This document shows, in pieces, positions 1,101 to 58,202 of a stretch of 64,000 nt of DNA (positions within the stretch are counted from its first letter, which is position 1; every line of letters begins with the position of its first letter). The notes beneath the pieces are model-generated. The model ran no database searches. It worked only from the letters and a program-made list of their open reading frames with translations, and had not been told where the DNA came from. This stretch comes from a virus. Location of the stretch: the IMG/VR virus record IMGVR_UViG_3300020477_000013, positions 124,001 through 188,000 of that record; one strand, 5' to 3'. Both the position numbers and the translations under genes were made by a program.

Positions 1101-1538
1101 ATGTACAAAGTGGGCCAGGTTTTATATGTGATATTACAAAAAAAGCAGAGGATTATCCCTGTGCAGGTAGTAGAGCAAATTGTTCGCAGGACAGTCGAGG
1201 GTGAAAAAATTCAATACCTCGTTCGTGGGCCTGGGCGAGAGGAAGATATAGATCTCGATACATTCGGTGATCAGGTATTTGAAGACCTCGATGTAGTAAA
1301 AAGTACGTTGAGGCAAAATATATTCAAGGTTATTGATGATATGGCATCGAAAGCTTTAGAGATTGCAGGAAATTATTTTGAGATTGCGCAAAGTGATCCA
1401 GCAGGTGGCGAAGAATCTCATAACCAAGAAGAAAGTGGGGAACCTACCGGTGACACCGTTAGGATTCAACTAGAGAATGGCCAGATGGCAAATGTAAAAA
1501 TTTCTGCACCTACTACTGTTACACAAAAAAAAAGATGA
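1101..1538 (+). CDS. Hypothetical protein
   Basis: This 145-residue protein is of unknown function. Residues 1-55 look like a small beta-barrel (VGQVLYVILQKKQRIIPVQV and following strands), a central helix covers about 65-95, and the C-terminal part is acidic and probably disordered. The start follows GTAGAGGA at a normal distance. The stop overlaps the start of the exonuclease gene (ATGA at 1535), which indicates translational coupling and a possible accessory role to that nuclease. Confidence 0.6.
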   Translation: MYKVGQVLYVILQKKQRIIPVQVVEQIVRRTVEGEKIQYLVRGPGREEDIDLDTFGDQVFEDLDVVKSTLRQNIFKVIDDMASKALEIAGNYFEIAQSDPAGGEESHNQEESGEPTGDTVRIQLENGQMANVKISAPTTVTQKKR

Positions 1539-2353
1539 AAATACTCCTGTTAGACGGCTATAATTTAATCTATAGGGCTCGATACTCCTTTAAGCAAGGC
1601 GATCATCCTACAATATACTCATTTTTTCGTAGCCTGAGGCCGTTGGTGGAGAAATTTGACCCGGATTTCGTGTATTTCGTAACCGAGGGTTATCCGGCAT
1701 CACGGTATGAGATTTTACCTGAGTATAAAGCTTCAAGGGTTAGGGATGATGACCCTTCATTTAGCGAGCAGAAAAAGCAAATTATCTCTATCCTTAAGTC
1801 ATCATTTCCTGTTGCGGTTTGTCGGCACCCTAATTATGAGTGTGATGATGTTATTGCAAGCCTAGTTAGATATAGACACAGCGCAGATGAGTGCGTGGTC
1901 GTGTCAAGTGACACAGATTTTATACAGTTGTACAATACATGTGCTAACGTTTCTATTTACAATCCTGTTAGGAAAAATATCGTACCTGCCCCGGGGTATG
2001 ATTATGTTACGTGGAAGTCTTTACGGGGTGACGCATCTGATAATATTAAGGGAATCAGGGGCATTGGTGATAAGAGGGCGACGAAACTAGTATCCGACAC
2101 AGAGAAGCTAGCCAGCTTCCTAAGCGCTGACTCTGCACGAAGAGAGATATTCGAGAGGAATATGTCCTTAATTAGCTTTATTGACCTATCTGACCAGTTA
2201 GACGTATTAGAGGTTTCTACTTCTACGCCGGACTGGGATGGTGTTAAGAAAATATTTGATGATTTGGGATTCAATTCGATTACAAATCAAAAGTCCTGGT
2301 TAAAATTTCAAAATACATTTTCCAGACTTGGAAATGCCACACATAAAAACTAG
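1535..2353 (+). CDS. 5'-3' exonuclease, FEN/T4 RNase H-like
   Basis: This 272-residue protein is a flap-endonuclease-type 5'-3' exonuclease, the class that removes RNA primers and 5' flaps in phage replication. It shows the N-terminal LLLDGYNLIYRA metal-site motif, ECDDVIASL and SSDTDFIQL acidic motifs in the middle, and a helix-hairpin-helix-like stretch GDASDNIKGIRGIGDKRA at about residues 165-182. Its length is close to T4 RNase H and to the isolated exonuclease domain of DNA polymerase I, and no polymerase domain follows. It overlaps the upstream gene by four bases. Confidence 0.88.
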   Translation: MKILLLDGYNLIYRARYSFKQGDHPTIYSFFRSLRPLVEKFDPDFVYFVTEGYPASRYEILPEYKASRVRDDDPSFSEQKKQIISILKSSFPVAVCRHPNYECDDVIASLVRYRHSADECVVVSSDTDFIQLYNTCANVSIYNPVRKNIVPAPGYDYVTWKSLRGDASDNIKGIRGIGDKRATKLVSDTEKLASFLSADSARREIFERNMSLISFIDLSDQLDVLEVSTSTPDWDGVKKIFDDLGFNSITNQKSWLKFQNTFSRLGNATHKN

Positions 2354-2363
2354 GAGATTAATA

Positions 2364-4222
<1,859 letters not shown>

Positions 4223-4328
4223 GTATGTACTTAGCCTTTGTGGTGCTTATACTTTATCGTAGGTTGAGTTTTTATGTTTAGTTTGCACATTTACTGTGGG
4301 TGTTTTTTTTAAACTTATGGAGGTTAAA

Positions 4329-4568
4329 ATGTCCGGAAATGTTGTGCGTTTTTATAATGATGATGAGGTTCGAAAGTTGCCTACAAAGGAGTTGGCTGAC
4401 ACGCTATATAAGTACAAGAGAATGTTGTCACGTGATAACTCAGTTAAAAATTTAAATGTCGACAGAAGGAGACTTGAGGTAGAAATTTGTTATTTGCAAC
4501 GTGAGCTACAGTCACGTGAAAAGTGGAGTAAATCATTCGCTGAATCAGGCTTCCAAAAAAATCGGTGA
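4329..4568 (+). CDS. Hypothetical small coiled-coil protein
   Basis: This 79-residue, highly charged helical protein is of unknown function. The start at 4329 (MSGNVVRFYND) was chosen because GGAGG lies immediately upstream at the usual spacing; an upstream ATG at 4296 has no such site. It ends 27 bases before the sigma factor gene and may be cotranscribed with it. Confidence 0.6.
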   Translation: MSGNVVRFYNDDEVRKLPTKELADTLYKYKRMLSRDNSVKNLNVDRRRLEVEICYLQRELQSREKWSKSFAESGFQKNR

Positions 4569-4595
4569 TCACTAATTTAGGAGAAGTAATATCTA

Positions 4596-5366
4596 ATGTC
4601 AGATATACTTGAGACATTTTTTAAAGATGTAAGTAAAACCAACCTTCTTTCACATGCGGAAGAGATTGAGCTATCACAAAAGATAGAGGCTGGTGACAAT
4701 GCTGCACGAAACAGGATGATTAAGGCCAACATCAGGTTGGCAATTAGCATAGCTAAGAAGTACCAAAAGAAAGGTTGCGATTTAGAGGATTTGATACAAG
4801 AGTCGAATATCGGTTTGATGAAGGCTGTTGATCGTTATGACTGGAGGCGTGGCTTTAAGTTTTCGACTTATGCATGCTGGTGGATCAAGCAAGCGATTCG
4901 ACGTCATCTCACATCTCAATCATCTGCGATTAAGCTCCCTTCATATGCACGAGGGCTAATGTGGAAGATTAATAACATGAGACAAGAGTACTCAGACGAA
5001 TTCGGTTCACAACCCTCTAATGAAGAGCTAGCGGACTTGTTAGGCGTTTCAATTAAGACGCTTCGAAATGTGCTCCAGTGCTCTTCATCCATAGTGTCTT
5101 TAGAGGCTACCATAGGTAGAAGTGACGCATCAGGTACTCGCACGCTGGCAGAGGTTATTCCCGATGAATCGCTTGTTTCTGTCGACGATAAAATAGATAG
5201 AGAGATTATTATTCAAGCAATTCGCAGGTCGTTATCTAGTTTGACGATGAGGGAAGAGAAAGTAATCCGACTAAGGTTTGGGATATCAGAAGATCCAGCG
5301 GATGATAGTTCATACCCGATTACTAATGAAGAATTGCTTAGACTGGAAAATAGAGGACGGGCCTAA
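4596..5366 (+). CDS. Sigma-70-family sigma factor lacking most of region 4
   Basis: This 256-residue sigma factor would direct RNA polymerase to phage promoters. Region 2 is well conserved (residues about 38-107: AARNRMIKANIRLAISIAKKY, DLEDLIQESNIGLMKAVDRY, FKFSTYACWWIKQAIRRHL). Region 3 follows (PSYARGLMWKINNMRQEY ... NEELADLLGV). Region 4.1 begins (SSLTMREEKVIRLRFGI), but the protein ends at LRLENRGRA before a normal region 4.2 helix-turn-helix. A gene with an HTH-like segment starts two bases after the stop in another frame. The -35-binding part may therefore be supplied by a separate polypeptide. Confidence 0.88.
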   Translation: MSDILETFFKDVSKTNLLSHAEEIELSQKIEAGDNAARNRMIKANIRLAISIAKKYQKKGCDLEDLIQESNIGLMKAVDRYDWRRGFKFSTYACWWIKQAIRRHLTSQSSAIKLPSYARGLMWKINNMRQEYSDEFGSQPSNEELADLLGVSIKTLRNVLQCSSSIVSLEATIGRSDASGTRTLAEVIPDESLVSVDDKIDREIIIQAIRRSLSSLTMREEKVIRLRFGISEDPADDSSYPITNEELLRLENRGRA

Positions 5367-5368
5367 AT

Positions 5369-5665
5369 ATGAGTATGCCGAAGGGTTATAAGAGTGATGT
5401 AGGATATGCTACAGTTGCAAGTGATTTTGGCGGGATGGACTACCGCTCTATTGCTGAGAAAATGAGTGAGGATGGTTATTGCATGAACCATGCAACTGCT
5501 AGGAACGTTTTTTTAAGGGCTATGAAAAAGCTAGCGGTCGTTGTATGCGATCTTCATGACGTGTCTGATGATGACACGATTGAAAGAACCTCCAGAGATC
5601 CTAGGTTTCAGGAAGGAATGATAGATATTGTGACTGATATTTATGAAGACGATATTAGCATTTAG
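5369..5665 (+). CDS. HTH protein, possible detached sigma region 4
   Basis: This 98-residue protein starts two bases after the sigma factor stop. Residues about 24-56 (DYRSIAEKMSEDGY, then TARNVFLRAMKKLA) resemble the helix-turn-helix of sigma region 4.2 or a related DNA-binding HTH, including the typical ending RAMKKL. The remainder is acidic. The neighbouring sigma factor stops where this segment would normally begin, so the two may form one two-subunit initiation factor. An independent regulator is the alternative. Confidence 0.55.
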   Translation: MSMPKGYKSDVGYATVASDFGGMDYRSIAEKMSEDGYCMNHATARNVFLRAMKKLAVVVCDLHDVSDDDTIERTSRDPRFQEGMIDIVTDIYEDDISI

Positions 5666-5675
5666 GGAGATATAA

Positions 5676-6017
5676 ATGGCAATTTCATGGAATTTTTATA
5701 CAAAGAAGAGAAAAGTTAGTGTTACCAAGCTTTTGGCGGAGAATCGAATTACGACGTATGAGGGATTATGCTCATTCTTGAAACTAAAGGGTGTTGCACC
5801 TCCGCCGACTTTTAGCGAGGTCGAGCGGTTCGGTCTAACGAAGCAGGGTGAGCAAGCCACAGGCGACAATAATGCACCAGCGAAGGGTAAAGCCCCTGAG
5901 GAAGTTGAAGTGGTCAACCCTACGGCTGGCGAGTTAGAGGAGTCCAAGGAGGTGAAGCCGTCCAAAAAGAAGGCTCCGTCGTGGAAGAGAAAGAAGCCGG
6001 CTGCTAAAAAGAAATAA
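5676..6017 (+). CDS. Basic-tailed hypothetical protein
   Basis: This 113-residue protein has an N-terminal region (about 1-55) that may be a small folded domain (SVTKLLAENRITTYEGLCSF) and a histone-like C-terminal tail rich in Lys, Pro and Ala (KPSKKKAPSWKRKKPAAKKK). Such tails bind nucleic acid non-specifically. It follows the HTH gene by 10 bases with GGGAGAT upstream of its start, so it belongs to the same operon. The function is unknown. Confidence 0.6.
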   Translation: MAISWNFYTKKRKVSVTKLLAENRITTYEGLCSFLKLKGVAPPPTFSEVERFGLTKQGEQATGDNNAPAKGKAPEEVEVVNPTAGELEESKEVKPSKKKAPSWKRKKPAAKKK

Positions 6018-6029
6018 GAGCTTTAAAAG

Positions 6030-6260
6030 ATGAAAAAAGATCTTTTTCTTAAGCCGGGTGAACTAGTCCGGCTTATACCAGGACAGTACTACAGAGTTGG
6101 TAATCTACCCTCCGATATTCCACCCTTTAAGAGATTGAGTGGTGAAACTAACGCCGTCTTGGTAGACTACCAAGGGTCCACAGATGATAGAGACTGCTGG
6201 ACTGTTTTGGCAAATGATGAAATTTTATTCGCATGGGAAGATAGTCTTTCCAGGATTTAA
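6030..6260 (+). CDS. Hypothetical small beta-rich protein
   Basis: This 76-residue protein (LKPGELVRLIPGQYYRVGNL ...) resembles small SH3/KOW-like phage proteins in its PGELVRL opening and alternating strands. The function is unknown. It sits between two cotranscribed small genes. Confidence 0.55.
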   Translation: MKKDLFLKPGELVRLIPGQYYRVGNLPSDIPPFKRLSGETNAVLVDYQGSTDDRDCWTVLANDEILFAWEDSLSRI

Positions 6261-6281
6261 ATAAAAAAGGTGATTGATATT

Positions 6282-6512
6282 ATGGTAAATGAAGTTGTAG
6301 TTGAGCTAGTCGAAAAGTTGACGAGAATAGAGGGAGAGCTTAAGTTGCTACAGGAAGAGAAAAAAGACTTATTCGATGACTACAAGGAAAAAATTGACCT
6401 TAAGGCATTTAAGGCAGCGGTTCGCATTGCAAAGATTCGGTCAAGGATGGGTGACTCCGAGGTTGCCCTAGACAATATACTTGATGCAGTGTCCAAGAAA
6501 TTAACCGTCTAA
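6282..6512 (+). CDS. GapR-like (DUF2312-type) DNA-binding protein
   Basis: This 76-residue helical protein matches the GapR/DUF2312 pattern: a long N-terminal coiled coil (VEKLTRIEGELKLLQEEKKD) followed by a segment with Lys-Ala-Phe-Lys and RIAKIRSR, parallel to the family's VKALRKIIRLRKQ. GapR clamps overtwisted DNA ahead of replication forks in alphaproteobacteria, and small homologues occur in phages. The ATG at 6282 is preferred over GTG at 6270 because AAAAAAGG lies about 11 bases upstream. The call is by pattern, not by alignment. Confidence 0.5.
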   Translation: MVNEVVVELVEKLTRIEGELKLLQEEKKDLFDDYKEKIDLKAFKAAVRIAKIRSRMGDSEVALDNILDAVSKKLTV

Positions 6513-6524
6513 GGTTTTTTAAAG

Positions 6525-7166
6525 ATGGTATATCGGCCCGTTTTAAAATGGCCAGACCCTCGCCTTAAGGATATCTCCGCTCCAGTCACTGAGTATGGTG
6601 AAGACTTACAGGTCTTGATAAGGGACATGTATGATACCCTTAATGTTGAAATGGGTGTCGGCCTTGCGGCACCTCAAATAGGCATACATCAGCGTGTGAT
6701 TATACTCGACTGTGATGCATTTGATGCTAAAAATCCTGATCCCATGGAAGAAGATGATAGGTTGTGGACGCTTATTAATCCTGAGATTAGTTTGAGTGGC
6801 GATGACGTGACATGGAGAGAAGCATGTCTATCAGTTCCTCTCTATGGAGGCGACGTCCCGAGGAAGACTGCTGTTACGGTTACATATAATGACCGTCATG
6901 GAAGTGAAAAAAAAGTAGAAGTATCATGGCCCCTAAGCGGATGCTTGCAACATGAATGTGATCACCTAGAAGGAATTTTGTTCATTGACCAGATGAATAA
7001 AAGAGAGTCTATGGAGATTCGAAAAAAGATTAACCGCCGGCGCCGAGAGAACAAGAAGGCAGCGCTCAAGCGCAGGCGGCGCCTGCGCGGTGAAAAGAAG
7101 CTGATAGATACCAGGATGTCTCATGGTCCAGGTAAGAGAAAAAAGAGAAAAAAGAGAAAAAAGTGA
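6525..7166 (+). CDS. def: Peptide deformylase with basic C-terminal tail
   Basis: This enzyme removes the formyl group from the N-terminal methionine of new proteins. All three family motifs are present: GVGLAAPQ (residues 44-51), EACLS (99-103, with Ala in place of the usual Gly) and QHECDHLEG (142-150), which supplies the His-Cys-His metal ligands with Cys101, His143 and His147. Unusually, residues about 165-213 form a strongly basic tail ending in repeated Arg-Lys-Lys, absent from most phage and bacterial versions, which may bind RNA or ribosomes. Phage deformylases are known from marine T4-like phages. Confidence 0.92.
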   Translation: MVYRPVLKWPDPRLKDISAPVTEYGEDLQVLIRDMYDTLNVEMGVGLAAPQIGIHQRVIILDCDAFDAKNPDPMEEDDRLWTLINPEISLSGDDVTWREACLSVPLYGGDVPRKTAVTVTYNDRHGSEKKVEVSWPLSGCLQHECDHLEGILFIDQMNKRESMEIRKKINRRRRENKKAALKRRRRLRGEKKLIDTRMSHGPGKRKKRKKRKK

Positions 7167-7180
7167 AAAAAAATCACTTT
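7160..7180 (+). other. Small hairpin after def
   Basis: AAAGTGA (7160-7166) and TCACTTT (7174-7180) are a perfect 7-bp inverted repeat around a poly-A loop. It overlaps the deformylase stop codon and is not followed by a T-run, so it is unlikely to be a strong terminator. Confidence 0.3.
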
Positions 7181-7278
7181 AGGGGTGTTCTTGACTAATC
7201 TGGTGTCTATTATTAGTACATAAGAGCCTATAGGCTGTTATCGTTTTTGTTTTGTAACTTTATAGGAGAAATAGCAAA

Positions 7279-9150
7279 ATGAGTAAAATTATAGGGATTG
7301 ACTTGGGTACGACGAATTCATGCGTCGCTGTTGTTGAGGGCGGGGAGCCCAAAGTCATTGTTAACGAAGAAGGGAACAGGACGACACCTTCCGTCGTTGC
7401 ATTCGGTGATAATGACACCCTGGTGGGTGTAACGGCCCGCCGCCAGGCTGTTGTAAATCCCGGTAAGACTATCTACTCTGTCAAGAGGTTCATTGGGTCT
7501 AAGCTTAAGGAGGTTGAGTCCGCAGCGGGAAAGGTTGCGTACAACGTTGTATCTGCATCCGGAGGAGATGCACATGTAAAGGTTGGTGATAAGACATATT
7601 CACCTCCTGAGATTAGTGCAAAAGTTCTCCAGAAGCTTAAAAGATCTGCCGAGAAGTACTTGGGTGAGTCCGTTTCTGACGCGGTTATCACTGTGCCTGC
7701 ATATTTTAATGATAGCCAGCGTCAGGCAACAAAGGATGCAGGAAAGATCGCAGGCCTTAATGTTAAGCGGATTATTAATGAGCCTACTGCGGCCGCTTTG
7801 GCATACGGCCTTAATACCACAAGCGAACAACTAATTGCTGTTTATGACTTCGGCGGAGGGACATTTGACGTTTCTGTGCTAGAGGTAGGGAATGAAGTCG
7901 TCGAAGTCTTGTCAACGAGTGGAGACACTTACTTGGGGGGTGATAATGTAGATGAAGTGATCATCGATTACCTCACTGGTGTGTTTAAGCAAGAATCCGG
8001 TATTGATGTGAGTGATGATAGCATGGCTATGCAGAGAGTCCGGGAGGCCGCCGAGAAGGCCAAGATTGAACTCAGTTCTGCACAGCAGGCTGAGGTGAAC
8101 TTGCCATTCCTAACTGCAGATGCGACTGGACCCAAGCATATGGTTCACACACTTACGAGGTCAAAGTTCGAACAACTTGTTGAGCCTGTTGTCGAGAAGA
8201 CGTTTAAGTCTTGTAAGACGGCCCTAAAAGACGCCGGCAGGTCTCACTCCGAGATTGATCAAGTTATCCTCGTCGGGGGCTCTACTAGGATTCCTCTTGT
8301 TGTTAAAAAGGTAGAAGAATTTTTTGGGAAGGCTCCTCACCAAGGCGTGAATCCGGATGAGGTTGTCGCGCTCGGTGCAGCCGTTCAAGGTGGGGTACTT
8401 TCCGGAGACGTAAAAGATGTACTTCTTTTGGACGTTACGCCACTTAGTTTGGGTATTGAGACAATGGGCGCGGTTACAACTAAGTTGATCTCTAAGAACA
8501 CGACCGTCCCTACGAAGAAGTCAGAGGTTTTTTCAACCGCGTCTGATGGCCAATCGCAGGTGGAAATTCATGTCTTGCAGGGCGAGCGTGAGATGGCATC
8601 AGACAACCGAACGCTGGGTAGGTTTACCCTGGACGGAATTCCACCGGCTCCTCGTGGTGTCCCTCAAATTGAAGTCACATTTGATCTAGATGCAGATGGT
8701 GTCCTCAAGGTTTCTGCGGTGGATAAAGCAACAGGAAAGGACCAGGGAATCACAATTCAGGACTCATCCGGCCTTTCGTCGGAAGAGATTGAGAGAATGG
8801 TGAGGGAGGCTGCAAAATTCGAGGCGGAAGACCAGAAGAAGAGGGCAGTTGTTGAGTCAAGAAACAAGCTTGATTCTACGATCCACAGCGCTAACAAGAT
8901 GAAGGTTACAATGAAAGAGCAACTTTCTGAAGATGATATTATCGCAGTGGATTCAGCTATCAGCGAGGCTGAAAAGTATCTCACATCAGACATTACGTCA
9001 GACATTGATGGAGCTGTGGGTGCACTCACGTCAGTTTTGCAGGCACTCACAAAGTCTGTGTATGAAAATGCCACACCTCCCGAGAATTCTGGTGTGAATG
9101 ATACTGATACTCCAGCTGACGATGATATTATTGACGCGGAAGTTGCGTGA
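7279..9150 (+). CDS. dnaK: DnaK (Hsp70) chaperone
   Basis: This 623-residue Hsp70 is complete. The ATPase domain has [19 protein letters not shown], the [14 protein letters not shown] phosphate loop and [10 protein letters not shown]. The substrate-binding domain has [16 protein letters not shown] and a helical lid, and the acidic C-terminus ends DDIIDAEVA. The start follows TAGGAGAAAT. It uses ATP cycles to hold unfolded segments and works with DnaJ, which is encoded at 14235. It is unusual for a phage to carry both. GrpE is not seen in the window. Confidence 0.97.
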
Positions 9151-9152
9151 TA

Positions 9153-9183
9153 TAGTGTAAACCCTCCCTACGTGTTATATGAT
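9153..9183 (+). promoter_or_regulatory. Promoter, GTGYAAA class, for 9207
   Basis: TAGTGTAAA (9153-9161), 16 bases, then TATGAT (9178-9183). It shares box and exact spacing with eight other intergenic sites in the window. The predicted start of transcription, near 9190, falls at the beginning of the 3' arm of the hairpin at 9163-9200. Confidence 0.6.
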
Positions 9184-9200
9184 ACTAGTACGTAGGGAGG
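9163..9200 (+). promoter_or_regulatory. Hairpin that sequesters the ribosome-binding site of 9207
   Basis: CCTCCCTACGT (9163-9173) pairs perfectly with ACGTAGGGAGG (9190-9200), and the stem can extend four more pairs to 9177/9186. The 3' arm contains the Shine-Dalgarno GGGAGG of the small gene at 9207. Read-through mRNA from dnaK would hide the site. mRNA from the local promoter would lack the 5' arm and leave it open. Confidence 0.6.
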
Positions 9201-9206
9201 ACTATA

Positions 9207-9356
9207 ATGAAAAACAAAAAGAAAAAAATTACGCTACCCCGTAATTGGTACGCTGTACATGCACATTTTCGTTCAGGTGCAGGTTGTCACATTGATAAAA
9301 AAAAGCAAAATTCTAAGCGAGCATGCCGAGGCAAGGTAAAAGACCTTAGGGAGTAA
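9207..9356 (+). CDS. Conserved-type small basic phage protein
   Basis: This 49-residue protein (MKNKKKKITLPRNWYAVHAH, then FRSGAGCHIDKKK and a basic end with Arg-Gly-Lys-Val) resembles very small basic proteins common in phages that share an R-N-x-x-A-V-x-A-H pattern. The function is unknown. GGGAGG sits 6 bases before the ATG. It has its own promoter and an SD-masking hairpin, which suggests that its timing matters. Confidence 0.65.
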   Translation: MKNKKKKITLPRNWYAVHAHFRSGAGCHIDKKKQNSKRACRGKVKDLRE

Positions 9357-9360
9357 ATAC

Positions 9361-9669
9361 ATGGCAAAGCAATTGCGTCTTCCATTTATCGATAATAATA
9401 AGAAAGATACACAGGTCTTCGAAATCTATAAGCTTGATTCTGCTGTATATCCCTATATCAGGAGGTATCATTCTCATATTAAATTTGTGATAGCTCCTTG
9501 CGCGGATGATGCATCGAATCAAGAGCGCCGTCTTTTTGAAGCGGCTAGGAAAGATAATGCATACCTTGGTATTAAGGAAGCGTCACGTGAGGATGTTATG
9601 ACTCGGTCAATTGTGCTAGAGGGCCAGCTTGAGGCTTGTTATGATGCTATGAAAAAACTAGATAGCTAA
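9361..9669 (+). CDS. Hypothetical protein
   Basis: This 102-residue protein is not recognised. It starts five bases after the previous stop, with TTAGGGAG upstream. It has an opening with QLRLPFID, a central beta/alpha region and a helical end. It is the last coding gene before tRNA-Arg. Confidence 0.55.
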   Translation: MAKQLRLPFIDNNKKDTQVFEIYKLDSAVYPYIRRYHSHIKFVIAPCADDASNQERRLFEAARKDNAYLGIKEASREDVMTRSIVLEGQLEACYDAMKKLDS

Positions 9670-9681
9670 ACATTATTATAT

Positions 9682-9758
9682 GCGCCCGTAGCTCAGCTGG
9701 ATAGAGCATCGGCCTTCTAAGCCGAGGGTCACAGGTTCGAATCCTGTCGGGCGTGCCA
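9682..9758 (+). tRNA. tRNA-Arg (anticodon TCT)
   Basis: A 77-nt cloverleaf. The acceptor GCGCCCG pairs with CGGGCGT, with a G-U first pair. The D arm contains AGCTCAGCTGGATAGAGC, the anticodon stem GGCCT/AGCC-type carries TCT, the T arm has GGTTCGAATCC, and CCA is encoded. It reads AGA, a codon used often by the surrounding genes. Confidence 0.95.
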
Positions 9759-9798
9759 TTTTATTTTTGTTATATGCGTTGGGCGTGAGGCTTCATAC

Positions 9799-10092
9799 AT
9801 GGAACAAGATATTTTAACTAAGGTCAGGATGATTGAAGAAGGTATTGTACCATTTGATTGGCCGGATTGCCATGTAAATGACGGATTGCATAGCATGCCA
9901 GAAGGCCTCCGCCGAAAGGCTCGGAGGAAATTTCGCAAGTTGTGGCGAAAGGCGTTAAAGAAAAAGTCTTCGAATGCTGTTCTTTTTCGCAACCTCGTAA
10001 ATAGTTGTGGTGTAGGTCTGGATGAGAGTAAATTACGTCCCCACCACCGCCGGGCCCGGGCTAAGCTTGTGATAGAATATCTCTACCCCTAA
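9799..10092 (+). CDS. Basic hypothetical protein
   Basis: This 97-residue protein is not recognised. Its middle is strongly basic (GLRRKARRKFRKLWRKALKK), which suggests nucleic-acid contact. It is the first gene after tRNA-Arg and ends 33 bases before a probable terminator. Confidence 0.55.
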   Translation: MEQDILTKVRMIEEGIVPFDWPDCHVNDGLHSMPEGLRRKARRKFRKLWRKALKKKSSNAVLFRNLVNSCGVGLDESKLRPHHRRARAKLVIEYLYP

Positions 10093-10124
10093 TTATTCCT
10101 TTTTCATTTTATAAATTTTCCTAC

Positions 10125-10151
10125 CCGCCGACAGGTTAAACTGATCGGCGG
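10125..10151 (+). terminator. Probable terminator
   Basis: CCGCCGA (10125-10131) and TCGGCGG (10145-10151) form a GC-rich stem directly followed by TTTATATTT. The T-tract is interrupted, so efficiency may be partial. Confidence 0.5.
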
Positions 10152-10184
10152 TTTATATTTATAATGTTGTGGGAGGATATTAGT

Positions 10185-10760
10185 ATGCATTATAGAAGAT
10201 TAGTAGAGGCAGAGTCCCCGGAGGAGAGATTGATGGAGGTTTCCATACAGAAGGCTCTATCTAGGGCTCCTTTAAGTGTTACTGAGTTAAATCGCTTAAT
10301 GGAAGCAGACTTTGGTACATTAATATCAGAATGGGGCCTGGGCTATGATGAAGCGAACCGTGTTCTATACTGGATGAAAAATGAAACATATCGCATGAAC
10401 GCACAGTCATTATCATTTGGGAAGGTTGATGACTATGACATTCGTGGCCGTCGCCCTGGTTCTCCTGGTTTACTTGAGTCTCGCCGTAGAAAACACCTGA
10501 AGACAAGAATTAGGAATTCTATTAATGAGAGTATGAATCAAGTTTCGAAGTCAGCAAAGTCCCATCCTCTCAACGACCAGTCAGGCCATCATGCAAGGTG
10601 CTGGGGTCATGGGTCCGTTGTGGATCCTGAAGGTTACACCGGGCTCATTCAACAAGGGATTAATTTTACGAAAGGTAAGTCTAAATCTCCCCTAAGAATG
10701 ACCGAAGGTCAACTCCGTAGGGCACTTCGGGCTATTTTAAGGAAAAATATTTCCGGGTGA
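10185..10760 (+). CDS. Hypothetical protein with C-terminal QLRR helix
   Basis: This 191-residue protein is of unknown function. The start at 10185 is preferred over 10164 because GGGAGG lies 8 bases upstream of it. The N-terminus MHYRRLVEAESP resembles short T4-type capsid-targeting leaders, which end in a hydrophobic-x-Glu followed by a small residue. The C-terminus contains MTEGQLRRALRAILRK, similar to the leader module of the 22.5-37.8 kb array but at the opposite end of the protein. Confidence 0.6.
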   Translation: MHYRRLVEAESPEERLMEVSIQKALSRAPLSVTELNRLMEADFGTLISEWGLGYDEANRVLYWMKNETYRMNAQSLSFGKVDDYDIRGRRPGSPGLLESRRRKHLKTRIRNSINESMNQVSKSAKSHPLNDQSGHHARCWGHGSVVDPEGYTGLIQQGINFTKGKSKSPLRMTEGQLRRALRAILRKNISG

Positions 10761-10806
10761 TAGCTTAAGCTATTATAAGCTACATCATTCTTCTTCTGCC
10801 CATAAT

Positions 10807-10879
10807 ATGTTGTTAATTAAACAACATTCCTCAAAACCCTATACTTATATTAGGATGGTGGGAGATCGCCGAGGAATGT
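10807..10879 (+). promoter_or_regulatory. Overlapping inverted repeats in the leader of 10883
   Basis: ATGTTGTT/AACAACAT (10807-10814 and 10820-10827) form an 8-bp hairpin. ACATTCCTC (10824-10832) is the exact complement of GAGGAATGT (10871-10879), which holds the Shine-Dalgarno of the lipoprotein gene. The two structures share bases 10824-10827 and exclude each other, as in an attenuator-like switch. The 38-base loop makes the second one uncertain. Confidence 0.35.
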
Positions 10880-10882
10880 AGC

Positions 10883-13033
10883 GTGGAGAGTAAAAGAGAA
10901 TATTTAAGGCTAGTTTTTCTTGCTTTGGTACCAACTCTTTTGGTAATAGCATGTCCAGTGAGTGATGGGGGAGGAAAGCAGTCCTCGATAGACGTCCTTG
11001 TTTCACATGACATCCAGGATGTTAATGATGATTTAGACGTGGAACCTGATACACAGGATGTCGGGCCTGACCCATGGGCTTACCCTTTTCCTGGTAATTC
11101 ATGTGTCCAATGTCAGTGGTATTATTGCCCACCCCTCGACTCAGTTTGGCAAAAGCAGATATGCATAGATCACTGTGAGGATCCGCCTGTTGTACTGCAT
11201 GAGGGTGAATGCGAGGAATATTTGCAGTGTGACCCCACACAGCCCACTATGGAGACCGGCATTCCATGTATTACTGATGACGGGTACCCTGGAACCCAGG
11301 ATAAAATTTGCAACAAAGGCCAGATACAGTATACCAATTGCGAGACAGAGTGCTTCGAAGAGCTGTGCAACGGCATAGACGATGACTGTGATGGGGAAAC
11401 AGACGAAGGGTTTGAGGAATATGAGGAGGTTTGTAATAACATCGATGACAACTGCAACGGTGTAGTTGACGAGGGTGAGTGGGAGTGTGATGAAGGTTGC
11501 GGGCCAGCACCGAACCTGTGCGTCGCGGGTGAATTTATCTGCACCGCACCCCTTCCGGAAGAGGAGATCTGCGACGGCCTGGACAATGACTGCGATGGAC
11601 TAACTGACGAAGACCAGCTAAACGCATGTGGCTCCTGCGGCCTAGAACCAGAAGAGTCATGTAATGGTATAGACGATGACTGTGACGGATTTATAGATGA
11701 AGAGTTAATTCAACCCTGTAGCACATCATGTGGCGAGGGTTACGAGATATGTGACGATGGTAACTGGATTTCATGCAATGCGCCCCCTGTCCTGGATGAG
11801 ATCTGTGACGGTCTGGACAACGACTGCGATGGCCAAATTGATGAAGAGCTACAATGTGTATGCACAATCCAGGATGTAGGTACTCTTTTCCCTTGCAGCG
11901 AACCTCCTCTCCTCTGCGGCCAGGGATATAAGACATGCGAGTGCCTAGATTCAGAGTGCAAGACGATTGTCACGACGCCATGTCATGCCATCTGCTATTG
12001 GTTAGCGGATCCCTGGGGGTCAGATCCATCCTGTGATCCTCATGTGGGCATTGCATTGGTGGATGAGAAGTGTAATAACTTTGATGATGATTGTGACCAA
12101 GATATAGATGAAGACCTATTCTCAGGATGCTATACAGGCCCTGAGGGAACCCTGTACGTAGGAATCTGTGAGCCCGGAGAGATGACATGTAGTGCAGGTA
12201 CATGGGGACACTACAGCGATGAATCCCAAAATTTTATTCCAGGATTCTGTAAAGATGAAGTTACCCCCCAACCTGAAATCTGCAACGGTCAGGATGATGA
12301 TTGTGATGGGGAAACTGACTGGGGCGAAGAGCTTAAGGACACCGATGTCCTGTTTATAATAGACTGGTCCGGGTCAATGAGTGATGAGATATCTGCAATT
12401 ATGACGGCACTAAATCAATTTGCAAATAACTTTAAGGATGAGACTGTGATTCACTGGGGCGTTATCCTCGGTCCAAAGCAGGCCCCCAATTTATATGATG
12501 AGCACCTAGAGCTATATCATAACCTCACAGGGTTTACCGACTTCTTAAACGCAATGTCAAGCCTCACATTTACAGGTATGAATACATCAAAGGAAATGCT
12601 TTTAGACGCCTTATACCTTTCATTACAAAATATTAGTGGGAGTACACCATACGCAGTTCCAGATATGACATGGCTTAATTTTGGAGGAATTGTTGATTCG
12701 GCGCCGCCTAAAGATTCTTTCTCTATTGACTGGCGCCCCGGGGCAGATCGCATAATAATAGTATTCACTGATGAAGTTGAGCAGAGCTACCTCTCACACT
12801 CAGATCCTCCTAGCGGAGCGCACGTCTTGGACTCCAGCATTATTATGTCGATGGCACAGGCAACACCACAGCTTAAAATCTACACTTTCGCCAAAAATGA
12901 GGTATGGCAGTGGGATGAAATAGCGAACAAGACAGGAGGGAAGTTCTTCCCCCTCACGAACAAGCCTACTGAGATGTATATTAGCCTTACAGAAATTTTA
13001 GATGAAATATGTAAGGGCGGTAACACCGAATGA
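10883..13033 (+). CDS. Secreted lipoprotein with MopE-type repeats and VWA domain
   Basis: This 716-residue protein begins with GTG (GAGG 8 bases upstream). Residues 1-24 are a lipoprotein signal ending LLVIAC. Seven copies of a Cys-rich acidic motif of the form C-[ND]-G-x-D-[DN]-[DN]-C-[DN]-G-x-x-D-E follow between about residues 150 and 480, the repeat called putative metal-binding or MopE-type and typical of myxobacteria and relatives. A von Willebrand A domain then begins with a MIDAS motif (FIIDWSGSMSDE) and fills the C-terminus. It probably binds calcium and acts at the cell surface, in adhesion, exclusion or lysis. It overlaps the metallopeptidase gene by four bases. It is probably acquired from the host lineage. 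Confidence 0.85.
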   Translation: MESKREYLRLVFLALVPTLLVIACPVSDGGGKQSSIDVLVSHDIQDVNDDLDVEPDTQDVGPDPWAYPFPGNSCVQCQWYYCPPLDSVWQKQICIDHCEDPPVVLHEGECEEYLQCDPTQPTMETGIPCITDDGYPGTQDKICNKGQIQYTNCETECFEELCNGIDDDCDGETDEGFEEYEEVCNNIDDNCNGVVDEGEWECDEGCGPAPNLCVAGEFICTAPLPEEEICDGLDNDCDGLTDEDQLNACGSCGLEPEESCNGIDDDCDGFIDEELIQPCSTSCGEGYEICDDGNWISCNAPPVLDEICDGLDNDCDGQIDEELQCVCTIQDVGTLFPCSEPPLLCGQGYKTCECLDSECKTIVTTPCHAICYWLADPWGSDPSCDPHVGIALVDEKCNNFDDDCDQDIDEDLFSGCYTGPEGTLYVGICEPGEMTCSAGTWGHYSDESQNFIPGFCKDEVTPQPEICNGQDDDCDGETDWGEELKDTDVLFIIDWSGSMSDEISAIMTALNQFANNFKDETVIHWGVILGPKQAPNLYDEHLELYHNLTGFTDFLNAMSSLTFTGMNTSKEMLLDALYLSLQNISGSTPYAVPDMTWLNFGGIVDSAPPKDSFSIDWRPGADRIIIVFTDEVEQSYLSHSDPPSGAHVLDSSIIMSMAQATPQLKIYTFAKNEVWQWDEIANKTGGKFFPLTNKPTEMYISLTEILDEICKGGNTE

Positions 13034-13647
13034 GAAAGGTAGTAGCTGCAGCGATTATAGTGCTCTTAAGTGCAGTGACATGTGTCGGGCATAATCAGGG
13101 ATCGTCTGTTTTCTTTTCCAACGATTATAAGATAATAAGGGGCGGCTCAACCTGCAATCCAGACGGTGACTTTCCTCAAATGATTATCATCCCATTTTTT
13201 GTTCATGCTACACAGGTCGTTAACGATTGTGATGTTTATGCTAAACACAAAGTTGGGCTTGCACTGTTAATATATTACCACAAGTGGGTCGAGGAATTCG
13301 GGGATCCGGATTTCAAGGTTAGAGAAATGCTAGAGAAAGTTATGATTCAATGGGGAGATCAAGTTAAGATTTCCAAAAGGGGGTTCTCTATTGATGGAGA
13401 ACCATTTACAAACAGGAATATTATTGGCCGTGTTATGGGACCTTCGGTGATCTGGGTTTTCAAGGGAAGAGAAAATAAGATATCAGAGACTGCATTAGTT
13501 CATGAATTGGTGCATCTTTCAATCAGGGCCGAATATGGTGAGCATGGAGATCCGGATCATGAAGGAGGAAAGTATGGAGGCTGGTCTGTGGTTCATACTC
13601 ACATGATTCAGGAGGTTAACCAGATGCTGAGGGCTTTTAATATATAG
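13030..13647 (+). CDS. Exported zinc metallopeptidase
   Basis: This 205-residue protein has an N-terminal signal sequence (VVAAAIIVLLSAVTC) and a zinc site HELVH at about residue 160 in ETALVHELVHLSIRAEYGEH. A later Asp-His-Glu may supply the third ligand. It is coupled to the VWA lipoprotein by an ATGA overlap, so both probably act outside the cytoplasm together, for example in processing of the lipoprotein or opening the envelope. The exact peptidase family cannot be fixed by eye. Confidence 0.65.
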   Translation: MRKVVAAAIIVLLSAVTCVGHNQGSSVFFSNDYKIIRGGSTCNPDGDFPQMIIIPFFVHATQVVNDCDVYAKHKVGLALLIYYHKWVEEFGDPDFKVREMLEKVMIQWGDQVKISKRGFSIDGEPFTNRNIIGRVMGPSVIWVFKGRENKISETALVHELVHLSIRAEYGEHGDPDHEGGKYGGWSVVHTHMIQEVNQMLRAFNI

Positions 13648-13744
13648 TTATCTTTGTGAGATACATGTGTATAATCAACATGTCTTTCGTGTCAAAAGAA
13701 TGTGAAGGTACTAATTATACAAGGCGCAACATGGGAGCTAAGTC

Positions 13745-14194
13745 ATGAGTTTAAATTGGGCAAATAATAATCATAATTACGTTCCAGCGTATCAGATGTC
13801 GGGCCTTCCGTTTGCGACCGGATCCGCCTCTACGTCAGAGCTGGCCAACAACGTTGTCGTAAAGGTCAAATTTCCATACGTGACAAGGTGGATTTATGTT
13901 CGGAATAATGGTTCAGGCGATCTTCGCTTAGGTTTTAGCGAGAATGGTGTTAATGCAAATAATGCAAATACATACAATGTGACAGGTTCAAACAGGAACT
14001 ACATTGTTATCCCTGCGGCCGCGGCCGGTAAATTTAGTCACCTTGGACCCCTGGAGGTTAAGTGTACATCTGTTTATCTCCGGCGCGATGCTAGTACTTC
14101 TACTGGGTTCGAACTCATGGCAGGGTATACTGCTATTCCGGAAAATCAATTCCTTGTACTGACTGGGTCGAATGACTTCCAGGGTGTTGGATAA
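13745..14194 (+). CDS. Probable virion structural protein
   Basis: This 149-residue protein is rich in beta strands, Asn, Ser and Thr and lacks charged tails (NWANNNHNYVPAYQMSGLPF near the start, then PYVTRWIYVRNNGSGDLRLG). The VPAYQxSGxPF opening is reminiscent of small structural proteins conserved in marine myoviruses. It likely decorates the capsid or tail. It has its own leader of about 100 bases after the metallopeptidase gene. Confidence 0.55.
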   Translation: MSLNWANNNHNYVPAYQMSGLPFATGSASTSELANNVVVKVKFPYVTRWIYVRNNGSGDLRLGFSENGVNANNANTYNVTGSNRNYIVIPAAAAGKFSHLGPLEVKCTSVYLRRDASTSTGFELMAGYTAIPENQFLVLTGSNDFQGVG

Positions 14195-14234
14195 TTTTTT
14201 TATAAATCTTATTGTCTCTCTATAGAATTGGCAT

Positions 14235-15281
14235 ATGGAAAAAGATTATTATGATATCTTAGGCGTATCTAGATCAGCGAATTCTGATGATATAAAAAAA
14301 GCTTATCGAAAGCTAGCTGTTCAATTTCATCCGGATAAAAACCCGGACGATTCAGTTGCAGAAGAAAAATTCAAGGAGATAAGCGAGGCATACAGCATTC
14401 TGTCTGATCCCACAAAGAGGTCACAATATGATTCACCTACGGGGTTTACACATGCCGAGGGCTTTAACACAGCGGGTGATTTCAACGATATCTTTCAGCA
14501 GTTTGGGTTTGACGATATTTTTTCTGGTTTTTTCGGCGGCCGCAGGAGGCGCCGTCAGCAGTCGAGGAACCCCAATATAGAGATGGAGATGGAGATCCCA
14601 TTTCTCGACTCAGTACGCGGCGTGACGAATAAGATTCACCTGCAGCGCCGCGCGTCATGCGGCTCATGTCATGGCTCTGGTGCAAAGTTGGGTAGTAAGC
14701 CTGTGACATGCCCAACATGTAATGGCGCGGGAAGGACAGCACACAGGCAGGGGTTTATGTCTGTGACTATGGGATGCAGTACATGTTCTGGCTCCGGGAA
14801 AATTCTTACTGACCCTTGTTTGTCATGCTCTGGCACAGGCGTAACGCTGGAGACTGAAGAATTTGATATTAGGGTTCCTGCTGGGATTCATGAAGGAGAA
14901 TGTGTTGCTATAAGGGGGATGGGTGAGGTAGTGGATCCCTCTCTTCCACAAGGCGACTTAAATATTTTCATAAAAGTAAAGAAGACAAAAGATTTTGACC
15001 GCCGAGGTAATGATATTTTCTCCGATGTATCAGTACCGTTTGAGATTGCTACGCTGGGAGGTACTGTAGATCTTACGACTATCCACGGGACAAAAAAAGT
15101 GACTGTGCCGAAAGGTACACAGACAGGAAAGACAATTCGTGTAGCAGGTATGGGGGTTCACCATGAAACAGACTCTGCAAAGGGTGATCATTTTGCAAGG
15201 GTAATGATATCTGTTCCCACTACACTTACTGAGGATCAAGAGAATGTTTTGAGGATGTATTTTTCTTTGAACAATACATGA
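14235..15281 (+). CDS. dnaJ: DnaJ (Hsp40) co-chaperone
   Basis: This 348-residue type I DnaJ is complete. It has the J domain with QFHPDKN (HPD at about 33-35), a Gly/Phe-rich linker ([20 protein letters not shown]), four CxxCxGxG zinc modules ([32 protein letters not shown]) and the C-terminal substrate domains. It stimulates the ATPase of DnaK, encoded at 7279. Phages more often carry DnaJ alone than with its own DnaK. Confidence 0.95.
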
Positions 15282-18291: not shown

Positions 18292-19365
18292 ATGGCAGTA
18301 ACTAAAATTCATTACAGCAGAACGAGCGAAGGGGGGGTGGAACGAGCAGTCGGTCACGCCCTGAAAGCTTACCCAGGTACACTTTTAATATTCGTGGCCG
18401 ATTCGTCTAAAATATATGATGCAGTACGAGAGCGTTATCCTTTTCATGCTTGTATTCTTGCCGATAAGGAGCCTGATGAAGTCGTACCTGATATACTTAA
18501 GGAAAAGCGTATTGACATCAAGCAAGCAACATTTGTAATTGCATGCAACAGCGACCAGAAAGCCTTAAGGTATGTTGTATATATCACTGAGAATGGTGGG
18601 AAATATTTTCCCTGTGAAGACTCAAGGACGGCACAATATTTTCACATTAATGATAAGTGCTTTAGCATTGTAAATAGGCTGATGTGGATAGCACCAAGCC
18701 ATGTATCGGTCGACCAGTGGTGTAACATTATTCAGGCTATCGATATGACTTCCGATCTCACTGGCTCATACGTCGAGATAGGTGTGTTTAGAGGTTCTAG
18801 TGCAAAAGTTGCGTATGATTATTATAATACCATATGTAGGGAACAGACATGCTATTTTTTAGATACGTTTGGAGGGTTTCTTTATGATAGTGCTAAGGAC
18901 AGCCCTGACGCTAGGTGGGCAGAGGCCGATTTGCATGTTGTAGAGGATCATCCTATTTTCGGTAATTTGAAAGAGCAAGTTGGGGCATATTTGGATGGTA
19001 AGGCGGTGACTGCACATGGCGTGCTAGTACCTCCAGCTTCATGTACTAGCGGCACCCCGGATTCAACATATGCGGAATATAAATTGGTATCATGTGATAT
19101 TTGTGAAGATAACCTCCCTGGGGAGATAAAAAAGATCGCGGTATGTAATATCGACGTTGACCTCCAGGGTGCTATTGAGGCTGCTCTAAGAAAGTGTCAT
19201 CCTGTGATGGAATCAGGTGGTATAATGATAGTTCAAGACCCCGGAAAGACTCCTAGGCTTATCGGCGCCCGCCACGGTCTAGATAAATTCATGCAAGAGT
19301 TTGGCTCTAATTATCACCAAGTATACCTTGAGTCGTCAGGTCAGACTTACCTTATCAAGAAATAA
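18292..19365 (+). CDS. SAM-dependent methyltransferase, TylF-like
   Basis: This 357-residue protein has a C-terminal class I methyltransferase domain (residues about 155-350). It has a SAM-binding GSYVEIGVFRGSSAKVA, an acidic strand CYFLDTFGGF and a late motif GGIMIVQDPGKTP. This order resembles macrocin O-methyltransferase (TylF) relatives that modify sugars. The N-terminal 130 residues are unassigned. It lies 14 bases upstream of tilS. It may modify surface glycans together with the glycosyltransferases at 23990 and 56757. Confidence 0.65.
   Translation: MAVTKIHYSRTSEGGVERAVGHALKAYPGTLLIFVADSSKIYDAVRERYPFHACILADKEPDEVVPDILKEKRIDIKQATFVIACNSDQKALRYVVYITENGGKYFPCEDSRTAQYFHINDKCFSIVNRLMWIAPSHVSVDQWCNIIQAIDMTSDLTGSYVEIGVFRGSSAKVAYDYYNTICREQTCYFLDTFGGFLYDSAKDSPDARWAEADLHVVEDHPIFGNLKEQVGAYLDGKAVTAHGVLVPPASCTSGTPDSTYAEYKLVSCDICEDNLPGEIKKIAVCNIDVDLQGAIEAALRKCHPVMESGGIMIVQDPGKTPRLIGARHGLDKFMQEFGSNYHQVYLESSGQTYLIKK
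18798..18828 (+). promoter_or_regulatory. Internal match to the GTGYAAA promoter
   Basis: TAGTGCAAA (18798-18806), 16 bases, TATAAT (18823-18828): a perfect match to the phage promoter class, but inside the methyltransferase gene. It could drive tilS and the downstream tRNA and guaB-like genes, or be coincidental to the encoded Asp-Tyr-Tyr-Asn. Confidence 0.35.
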
Positions 19366-19379
19366 GAGGAAGGTGCTCA

Positions 19380-19994
19380 ATGATTAAGTTGCTAGGGAAG
19401 GTGCCACGCAAGATATACGTTGCTTGTTCTGGTGGTTCCGATTCGATTGCTGCTTTAGATTTTTTAAGGCGTGGCAATCGGGATGTGTCTGCATGTTATT
19501 TTGACCATGTGACAGATCACAGCCCTGTAGCATGTGATGCAGTCAGTTCATATTGTAGCGAGCATGGTTTATCACTCACTTTAGGTAGTTGTAAGCGCAC
19601 GAAAAGCAAGGGGGAGAGCTGGGAGGAGTATTGGAGAAATGAGAGGCTAGATTTCTTTCACTCTTTAGATGCACCAGTGGTTACAGGACATACATTAGAC
19701 GACGTGTGTGAGTGGTGGGTGTTTACTTCGCTGACTGGGGTTCCTCGATTGATCCCATATGCACATAAAAACGTCATTAGGCCATTCATGCTAACACCAA
19801 AGGCTGATATGGTTTCGTGGTGTGAGAAGAAGGGAATCAAATTCGTTGAAGACCCGTCGAATTTTAGTGACAAGTATATGAGGTCGTTTATCAGAAAAAA
19901 TATGATGCCTCATGCACTTTATGTGAACCCTGGGTTTTATAAAGTTATGAGAAAAAAGCTAATCGATGAAACATCACACTTGGGAAGTGTATAG
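19380..19994 (+). CDS. tilS: tRNA(Ile)-lysidine synthase, short form
   Basis: This 204-residue N-type ATP pyrophosphatase has the PP-loop SGGSDS at residues 17-22, the GHTLDDVCEWW motif (TilS-like GHxxDD) and the late segment VEDPSNFSDKYMRSFIRKNM, equivalent to the D-x-S-N ... R-N signature of TilS. TilS converts C34 of tRNA-Ile(CAU) to lysidine, so that it reads AUA. The protein stops after the catalytic domain and lacks the C-terminal domains of the roughly 430-residue E. coli enzyme. A CAT-anticodon tRNA follows 29 bases later, its likely substrate. Confidence 0.82.
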   Translation: MIKLLGKVPRKIYVACSGGSDSIAALDFLRRGNRDVSACYFDHVTDHSPVACDAVSSYCSEHGLSLTLGSCKRTKSKGESWEEYWRNERLDFFHSLDAPVVTGHTLDDVCEWWVFTSLTGVPRLIPYAHKNVIRPFMLTPKADMVSWCEKKGIKFVEDPSNFSDKYMRSFIRKNMMPHALYVNPGFYKVMRKKLIDETSHLGSV

Positions 19995-20022
19995 TTTGGT
20001 ATACATTTTTTAAGCAATCTTC

Positions 20023-20100
20023 GGGCCCCTAGCTCAATCAGGTTAGAGCAAGCGGCTCATAACCGCTAGGTTCAGGGTTCAAGTCCCTGGGGGCCCACCA
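20023..20100 (+). tRNA. tRNA with CAT anticodon, probably Ile2
   Basis: A 78-nt cloverleaf with acceptor GGGCCCC/GGGGCCC, anticodon CAT (loop CTCATAA), T arm GGTTCAAGTCC and encoded CCA. The overall layout resembles tRNA-Ile(CAU) more than elongator Met. Pairs C4-G69 and C5-G68, reported as TilS recognition elements in E. coli, are present. With tilS just upstream, lysidine modification and AUA decoding are likely. Elongator Met remains the alternative. Confidence 0.85.
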
Positions 20101-20125: not shown

Positions 20126-21160
20126 TTGAGTAATATTACTAGCGCAATTTGTTTTGATGATGTCTTGCTTGTCCCTAAGTATTCTGATATCCATTCAAGA
20201 AAAGAGATCGACTTGAGCGTCCCGCTACCTCGTACTAACATGTCTTTGGAAGTACCTATCATCTCTAGCCCGATGGATACAGTTACTGAAGATAACATGT
20301 CACATGCCATGTATGCATCAGGGGGCATGGGGATTATTCATAGGTATAATACTGTGGACAGGCAGGTCGAGATCTTAAATGATGCGATTATCGCCGGTGT
20401 GAAGCTGCCGGCTGCGGCTGTGGGTGTGTCTGGCGATTATCTAGATAGGGCAAGGGCATTGGCTGCCCATGGTGCAAAGGTTATATGCATCGATATTGCT
20501 CACGGTCATCATATCCTTATGAAGAATGCATTGTATGAACTGAGATGCTCACTTGGTAAAAGCGTGCATATTATGGCAGGTAATGTTGCAACTCTTGATG
20601 CGTTTAATGATCTTGCAGACTGGGGTGCTGACAGTATCAGGGTAGGAATAGGGGGCGGTTCAATCTGCTCTACACGTGTCCAGACTGGGCATGGAATGCC
20701 AACACTCCAGACAATTTTTCACTGCGCAAAATCAGATAGGGATGCGTTGCTTATCGCCGACGGAGGAATTCGAAATAGCGGAGATATCGTTAAGGCATTA
20801 GCGGCTGGAGCAGATGCGGTGATGCTGGGCTCTCTACTTGCAGGTACTGATGAGTCTCCTGGTGAGGTTATTTATATTCCCACCGAAGACAGGCGAGTCA
20901 AGGCTTATCGTGGTATGGCTTCAATAGAAGCCCAGGTTGATTGGCGGGGTCATACATCATCAGTGGAAGGTGTTTCAACGACCATTGATTATAAGGGTCC
21001 TGTCGGGGTAGTCATTGGAGGCCTAGTAACAGGCATAAGGTCAGGCTTATCCTACTCTGGAGCAAGGGATGTAAGGGAGTTCCAAGCAGCAGCAGAATTT
21101 ATAAGGCAAAGTGCAGCTGGGGCTGTTGAGAGTTCAACCCACATCCTAAAGTCTTCTTAG
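20126..21160 (+). CDS. IMP dehydrogenase/GMP reductase family enzyme
   Basis: This 344-residue TIM-barrel enzyme starts with TTG. It has the N-terminal [13 protein letters not shown] and ISSPMDTVT motifs of IMPDH, the loop [20 protein letters not shown] with the catalytic Cys, [20 protein letters not shown], and a flap-equivalent region with [12 protein letters not shown]. The CBS regulatory domains found in most bacterial IMPDHs are missing, which gives GMP-reductase-like length. IMPDH makes XMP for guanine nucleotides, and GMP reductase runs a different step; the motifs do not separate them safely. It likely supports the nucleotide supply during replication. Confidence 0.85.
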
Positions 21161-57965: not shown

Positions 57966-58202
57966 ATGAAGAACTATATAGCCTGCGGTGTAGCAGGTCT
58001 TGTCATGGGATTTTTGGTGAGCTGGTTTGTGATGACTGTTTGGGATGGGCTTATTCCTGCTCCACCCGAGAACGTTATTATCCGGCAGGCTCTTATGAGC
58101 CATTGTCAAGATACACCTGTGAGGGTATTATCCTGCCCCGGTCGGGTAGATACGTGTGTTTGTGGAAATCTTACAGAGAAGGATCTAAAGGGTGGAAAAT
58201 AA
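57966..58202 (+). CDS. Membrane-anchored Cys protein
   Basis: 78 residues with an N-terminal membrane helix (YIACGVAGLVMGFLVSWFVM) and a small Cys-containing domain (SHCQDTPVRVLSCPGRVDTC). It overlaps the malate synthase start. The cysteines suggest an exported, disulfide-bonded tail. Confidence 0.58.
   Translation: MKNYIACGVAGLVMGFLVSWFVMTVWDGLIPAPPENVIIRQALMSHCQDTPVRVLSCPGRVDTCVCGNLTEKDLKGGK

Follow-up and report, generated by a model that had tools for sequence, protein, structure and literature searches.

Does a phage that carries the catalytic domain of TilS directly beside a tRNA gene with a CAT anticodon bring its own means of reading AUA codons? Whether a CAU tRNA stands for Met or for Ile depends on TilS, and the bacterial types described so far avoid modifying tRNA-Met by means of appended domains. 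The known type I and type II enzymes bind tRNA with their C-terminal domains, and residues of CTD2 are essential in type I (PMC12514573). In the established chemistry, C34 is first adenylated with ATP and then attacked by the side-chain amine of lysine (PMC12069591). The locus studied here lies in a window of 64,000 bases, corresponding to bases 124001-188000 of the 201,585-base IMG/VR virus record IMGVR_UViG_3300020477_000013. Positions are those of the window unless the record is named.

The tilS locus

The tilS gene was located at 19380-19994 on the plus strand, where an ATG start opened a reading frame of 204 aa comprising the catalytic N-terminal domain and the start of the linker helix. 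It was the sole tilS match within the 201,585-base record. The PP-loop motif SGGSDS (residues 17-22) was encoded at 19428-19445 on the same strand, which bore out the 204-residue TilS with this motif proposed in the initial annotation. Six bases before the ATG, AGAGGAAGG (19365-19373, plus strand) is, from its position, the probable ribosome binding site of tilS. The upstream neighbour (18292-19365, plus strand), a 357-aa protein with a weak TylF-type methyltransferase match, ended 14 bases 5’ of tilS, and the two genes are probably on one transcript. Downstream of tilS, a tRNA gene with a CAT anticodon was found at 20023-20100 on the plus strand. It had been claimed that tilS lies upstream of this tRNA by 29 bases; the order held, while the spacing was found to be 28 bases from the tilS stop codon. 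Starting 25 bases past the tRNA, a protein of the IMP dehydrogenase/GMP reductase family was encoded at 20126-21160 on the plus strand, and its score was far under every curated equivalog cut-off.

The same record carries a phage terminase. A bacterial gene or a misassembly was ruled out as the source of the locus by this terminase and by the dense small same-strand ORFs in the record.

Assignment of the 204-aa protein to TilS

The window protein was matched by the whole of profile TIGR02432 (lysidine_TilS_N) with 92.2 bits (E 3.7e-26), narrowly below the curated cut-off of 93.6 bits, and by Pfam ATP_bind_3 with 90.1 bits. Each of the 57 relatives in the alignment was matched by the TilS_N profile, with E values down to 1.7e-38, and TilS was the best profile for each of them. 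Sequence matches in the PDB were to the three known TilS structures (1wy5, 1ni5, and 3a2k), and to the catalytic domain only. The AlphaFold model of the 204-aa protein had a mean pLDDT of 96 and a pTM of 0.91, and the top five PDB entries returned by VIA-align (2e89, 2e21, 1ni5, 1wy5, and 3a2k) were all TilS, with Z scores of 21.0-23.1 over 200-202 residues; TtuA came next at 18.2. The best structural match, 2e89 from Aquifex TilS (Z 23.1), covered residues 6-235 of 313, and since the match ended at residue 235 the phage TilS stops in the linker helix.

Within the PP-loop, S17, G18, G19, D21, and S22 were invariant in 57 and 60 relatives. In the HxxDD..E motif, H104, D108, and E111 were invariant among the aligned relatives and D107 at least nearly so, and P135-F136, D158, N161, R168, and R172 were invariant or nearly so. 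The D-x-S-N...R-N-x-I-R motif was the same in phage TilS as in bacterial TilS. A CxxC pair of the FeS-binding TtcA/TtuA type was sought in the 204-aa sequence and none was present. Judged by profile, motifs, and a confident AlphaFold model, the window protein is a TilS catalytic domain. One segment departed from the bacterial pattern. The RG(S/T)GxxGLxG loop, which lies between the HxxDD and RP(L/F) motifs in bacteria, was absent from the entire phage clade and was replaced by an (L/M)(H/T/N)GxPxLIP-type stretch that is a few residues shorter. As this TilS-specific loop is altered in the phage clade, the lysine site may differ, though some Gemmatimonadota sequences likewise deviate from RG(S/T)GxxGLxG and the loop is not established as family-defining.

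Architecture without CTD1 and CTD2

CTD1 and CTD2 were sought with the TilS C-terminal domain profiles PF11734 and PF09179, neither of which had a match at E <= 1 across the 201,585-base record; both profiles gave sub-cut-off matches in two archaeal control genomes, which makes weak matches to them unreliable. A split gene was ruled out, as neither profile was found anywhere in the record. The earlier claim that the enzyme lacks its C-terminal domains was therefore upheld, with the ORF ending at the linker helix. Type I TilS (E. coli 1ni5, Geobacillus 3a2k) has the catalytic domain and motifs in common with phage TilS and carries both CTD1 and CTD2, whereas phage TilS carries neither. Type II TilS (Aquifex aeolicus, 1wy5/2e21/2e89) has the same catalytic fold (Z 21.1-23.1 over 202 residues) and the same motifs but keeps CTD1, which phage TilS lacks. 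From domain content and the structural model, the phage protein is a TilS-type catalytic domain outside both architectures.

Short TilS proteins in other phages

Two scans of viral contigs, the second of which used a consensus-like query built from the first set and so favoured the short-TilS family, yielded 73 distinct proteins of the short TilS type, including 64 that were less than 85% mutually identical. All 73 were 195-229 residues long. Bacterial and archaeal genomes were scanned using the family alignment, and this returned seven equally short proteins on metagenome-bin contigs (L140-L146), after which identity fell to 24-37%. The seven clustered with the phage proteins in the tree and had the same short length; their contigs probably belong to phages and were binned into MAGs. 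The bacterial proteins at 24-37% identity extended at least 103 residues beyond the catalytic domain, with three exceptions (L156, L193, and L206) that were cut or partial in the ORF reading. Beyond the catalytic domain, sampled bacterial type II-like proteins had 103-137 residues and phage proteins 2-30.

In a 129-row tree, made by a quick method with no bootstrap and with bacterial rows taken from the 80 best loci, the short proteins made up one side of a branch with an SH-aLRT of 100, apart from every bacterial TilS sampled. Ka/Ks was 0.07-0.24 in the eight close pairs with unsaturated, nonzero synonymous change, which indicates purifying selection on short tilS in these pairs; more divergent pairs were near saturation at synonymous sites. 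A decayed gene was ruled out by the conserved length, the conserved catalytic residues, and Ka/Ks. Judged from these sequence comparisons, short TilS is a maintained single-domain lineage that is widespread in phages. The PHROGs matches of the phage short-TilS proteins never included a TilS family, which reveals a gap in phage annotation.

Identity of the neighbouring tRNA

The tRNA at 20023-20100 was called by both ARAGORN and Rfam (68.5 bits). The CAT anticodon was placed by ARAGORN at 20058-20060 on the plus strand, where C34 would be the expected site of lysidine. The acceptor stem GGGCCCC/GGGGCCC was made up of the pairs G1-C72, G2-C71, G3-C70, C4-G69, C5-G68, C6-G67, and C7-G66, followed by A73 and an encoded CCA. 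Class was assigned against 23 labelled gammaproteobacterial CAT tRNAs, whose labels derive from similarity to annotated E. coli genes; a leave-one-out nearest-neighbour check recovered 23/23 labels. The closest Ile2 in this set had an identity of 0.87 to the window tRNA, whereas the closest elongator Met reached 0.78 and the closest initiator Met 0.65. In E. coli genomes, the sole match at E <= 1e-5 was a gene annotated as tRNA-Ile (78% over the full length). ARAGORN printed tRNA-Met, a label that it gives to any CAT anticodon. By its sequence, the window tRNA is thus a tRNA-Ile2. This agrees with the CAT tRNA with C4-G69 and C5-G68 and an Ile2-like layout described initially, the stem having been read directly, and the classification proposed as a check came out as Ile2 and as neither elongator nor initiator Met. 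Assignment as tRNA-Met was ruled out by the same identities.

A second CAT tRNA was present in the record at position 189793, beyond the window (1501-1578 of the stretch L022). It has its T arm in common with the window tRNA and carries C4-G69 but U5-G68, with identities of 0.82 to Ile2 and 0.79 to Met.

Pairing of tilS with CAT tRNA genes

A same-strand CAT tRNA was found at most 100 bases from tilS in 17 of the 64 distinct loci, after tilS in 11 and before it in 6. The other 47 loci had no CAT tRNA directly beside tilS, and in 33 of the 64 none occurred in the fetched stretch, the stretches being short and some records fragments. Of the tRNAs adjoining tilS, 17/22 had a CAT anticodon, as opposed to 15/118 of the other tRNAs in these loci (Fisher p 2.6e-9, with shared ancestry not corrected for). 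Adjacency of tilS and CAT tRNA exceeds chance. The loci with the tRNA before tilS were mostly confined to one part of the tree, and this gathering indicates that the two gene orders are separate states kept over long divergence. In one locus (L003), the tilS CDS overlapped the tRNA (5636-5713 of L003) by 10 bases, and its TAG stop codon was the conserved T8-A9-G10 of the tRNA. The initial proposal of a TilS together with its probable tRNA substrate gained support, as the pairing recurs in distant relatives and in both gene orders; lysidine would be the predicted product.

Fifteen of the 17 linked tRNAs were Ile2-like by nearest class, and two (L069 and L113) leaned towards Met. Both C4-G69 and C5-G68 were present in 5 of the 17, with C5-G68 in 11 and C4-G69 in 7; one tRNA without an encoded CCA (L123) was left unscored for acceptor pairs.

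A putative minimal lysidine system

We consider it likely that a minimal lysidine system is encoded by the phage itself, in which a single-domain TilS would serve the adjoining tRNA-Ile2 for AUA decoding. In the proposed mechanism, the single-domain TilS would adenylate C34 of the adjoining CAU tRNA with ATP, and lysine would then be joined to C34. The modified tRNA would no longer be a Met-type CAU tRNA; it would be charged by the host IleRS and read AUA. Phage AUA codons could then be decoded during infection whether or not the host TilS keeps up. Catalysis, lysine as the amine, the tRNA as substrate, and a benefit for AUA decoding are all predicted parts of this system. In the ORF set of this phage, called by a simple longest-ORF rule, AUA made up 319 of 1170 Ile codons (27%), or 17.8 per 1000. 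The figure for E. coli, which serves as a reference only, is 4.9 per 1000 (PMC12514573). The phage thus uses AUA as an ordinary codon. A tRNA(CAU) encoded by a T4-like vibriophage carries lysidine, according to a work cited in a passage of a review (PMC13191261).

Other explanations of the locus were weighed against this system. The protein might be an active C34-modifying ligase that uses another amine or another tRNA, such as the second phage CAT tRNA or host tRNAs, so that the adjoining tRNA would be one target among several. The alteration of the TilS-specific loop in the whole phage clade, the unconserved acceptor determinants of the linked tRNAs, and the second CAT tRNA at 189793 with its C4-G69 but U5-G68 would all fit such an enzyme. 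However, the catalytic and motif residues are of the lysidine synthetase type, TilS is the best-matching profile for every member, and the adjacency singles out CAT tRNAs, and we regard this explanation as unlikely. Alternatively, tilS and the tRNA could be neighbours merely because both lie in tRNA-rich translation islands, with the host TilS lysidinylating the tRNA and the phage protein doing something else or backing up the host. Many phages do carry an Ile2-like tRNA while no relative of this TilS is detectable in them (a similar tRNA in 188 records versus a tilS match in 24), and tRNA clusters occur near tilS in some relatives. An island would not account for the concentration of CAT tRNAs directly beside tilS compared with further off in the same loci, nor for the window tRNA, which stands alone, the next tRNA being 2.1 kb away on the upstream side and 27 kb away on the downstream side; this origin of the pairing therefore seems improbable.

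Reading the short protein as the inactive leftover of a once full-length TilS would be in keeping with the loss of all C-terminal domains and with an NCBIfam score just below the curated cut-off. Against this, all relatives have a common end point and form a single clade (SH-aLRT 100), their catalytic residues are invariant, and close pairs are under purifying selection, which leaves very little room for a remnant. It is still harder to believe that the window tRNA is an elongator tRNA-Met and its pairing with tilS coincidental. The tRNA-Met label from ARAGORN speaks for it, but is printed for any CAT anticodon, whereas the nearest-class identity is 9 points higher for Ile2, the only E. coli gene matching at E <= 1e-5 is annotated as tRNA-Ile, and the acceptor pairs C4-G69/C5-G68 are unlike U4-A69/A5-U68 of metT.

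Recognition of the tRNA by a single domain

Under the preferred reading of a phage-borne lysidine system, the catalytic domain would have to choose its tRNA without CTD1 or CTD2. The pairs C4-G69 and C5-G68 are determinants for E. coli TilS, and CTD2 touches the acceptor stem in type I TilS (PMC12514573). The absence of CTD2 and the drift of the acceptor pairs in the linked tRNAs fit together because CTD2 contacts the acceptor stem. The E. coli determinants are missing in other bacteria too (PMC12069591), so the drift is consistent with, but not proof of, acceptor-independent recognition. The suggestion that the enzyme may recognise its tRNA differently was strengthened, given that only 5/17 linked tRNAs keep both determinants. 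The single domain most likely reads the anticodon arm rather than the acceptor stem to tell Ile2 from Met tRNA. More speculatively, and with some doubt on our part, these proteins might constitute a third, phage-borne TilS class in which the catalytic domain alone selects tRNA-Ile2 through the anticodon arm, a partner, or dimerisation, is co-inherited with the tRNA as a minimal codon-reading cassette, and may attach an amine other than lysine in view of the altered loop. With a natural one-domain class that many phages conserve and that often lies beside its tRNA, one can test directly how little the choice between Met and Ile requires, and a one-domain TilS would provide a compact means of modifying C34.

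Relation to known systems

The closest described counterparts were the TilS proteins of the Pseudomonas jumbo phages MIJ3, PA5oct, and Paride (Wroclawvirus), which are likewise short and single-domain, 41% identical over 98%, and placed in the same clade (row PH_L013). Unlike the window, these phages have no tRNA within 5 kb of their tilS. In the accessible part of the 2019 account, TilS of MIJ3 was reported as the first in phages and noted in PA5oct as well, its function was called unknown, and a role in host viability was suggested; that part mentions neither the missing domains nor a tRNA-Ile2 partner (PMC6892783). Chlorovirus TilS is also virus-encoded, was proposed to aid AUA reading, and is kept in 39/41 chloroviruses, as stated in the accessible part of its description; it belongs to viruses of eukaryotic algae, is likened here by description and not by sequence, and that part does not speak of an Ile2 tRNA next to the gene (PMC7589089). 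The phiKZ-like phages have a similar CAT tRNA (78% over the full length), but their records were not among the tilS matches, so they presumably depend on the host TilS. Huge phages encode tRNAs and tRNA-modifying enzymes, although Al-Shayeb et al. name neither lysidine nor TilS in their main text (PMC7162821); short tilS was found here in two uncultured phage records of 634-642 kb. In the openly readable literature (main texts), we found neither a single-domain TilS class nor a coupling of such a TilS with an Ile2 gene described. Our results suggest that some phages supply the reading of AUA themselves rather than depend on the host enzyme for it.

Other features of the record

Several further genes were noted in the window. 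Host-like chaperones were encoded within 2582-15281, namely Cpn60 (2582-4222), Hsp70 (7279-9150), and DnaJ (14235-15281). In a 716-aa protein at 10883-13033, metal-binding motifs of the MopE type recurred and a von Willebrand A domain may be present; this protein had no match in the phage collection searched. PEP carboxykinase was encoded at 40433-41899, and the genes for malate synthase and isocitrate lyase, the glyoxylate shunt pair, were adjacent at 58192-60940 in this terminase-bearing phage record. Between 22524 and 37168, about 25 small plus-strand ORFs shared a near-identical leader, M(K/R)ITKRQLRRIIKEEKARL, and then diverged completely; the leader looks like a tag that phage proteins with nothing else in common share at their N-terminus.
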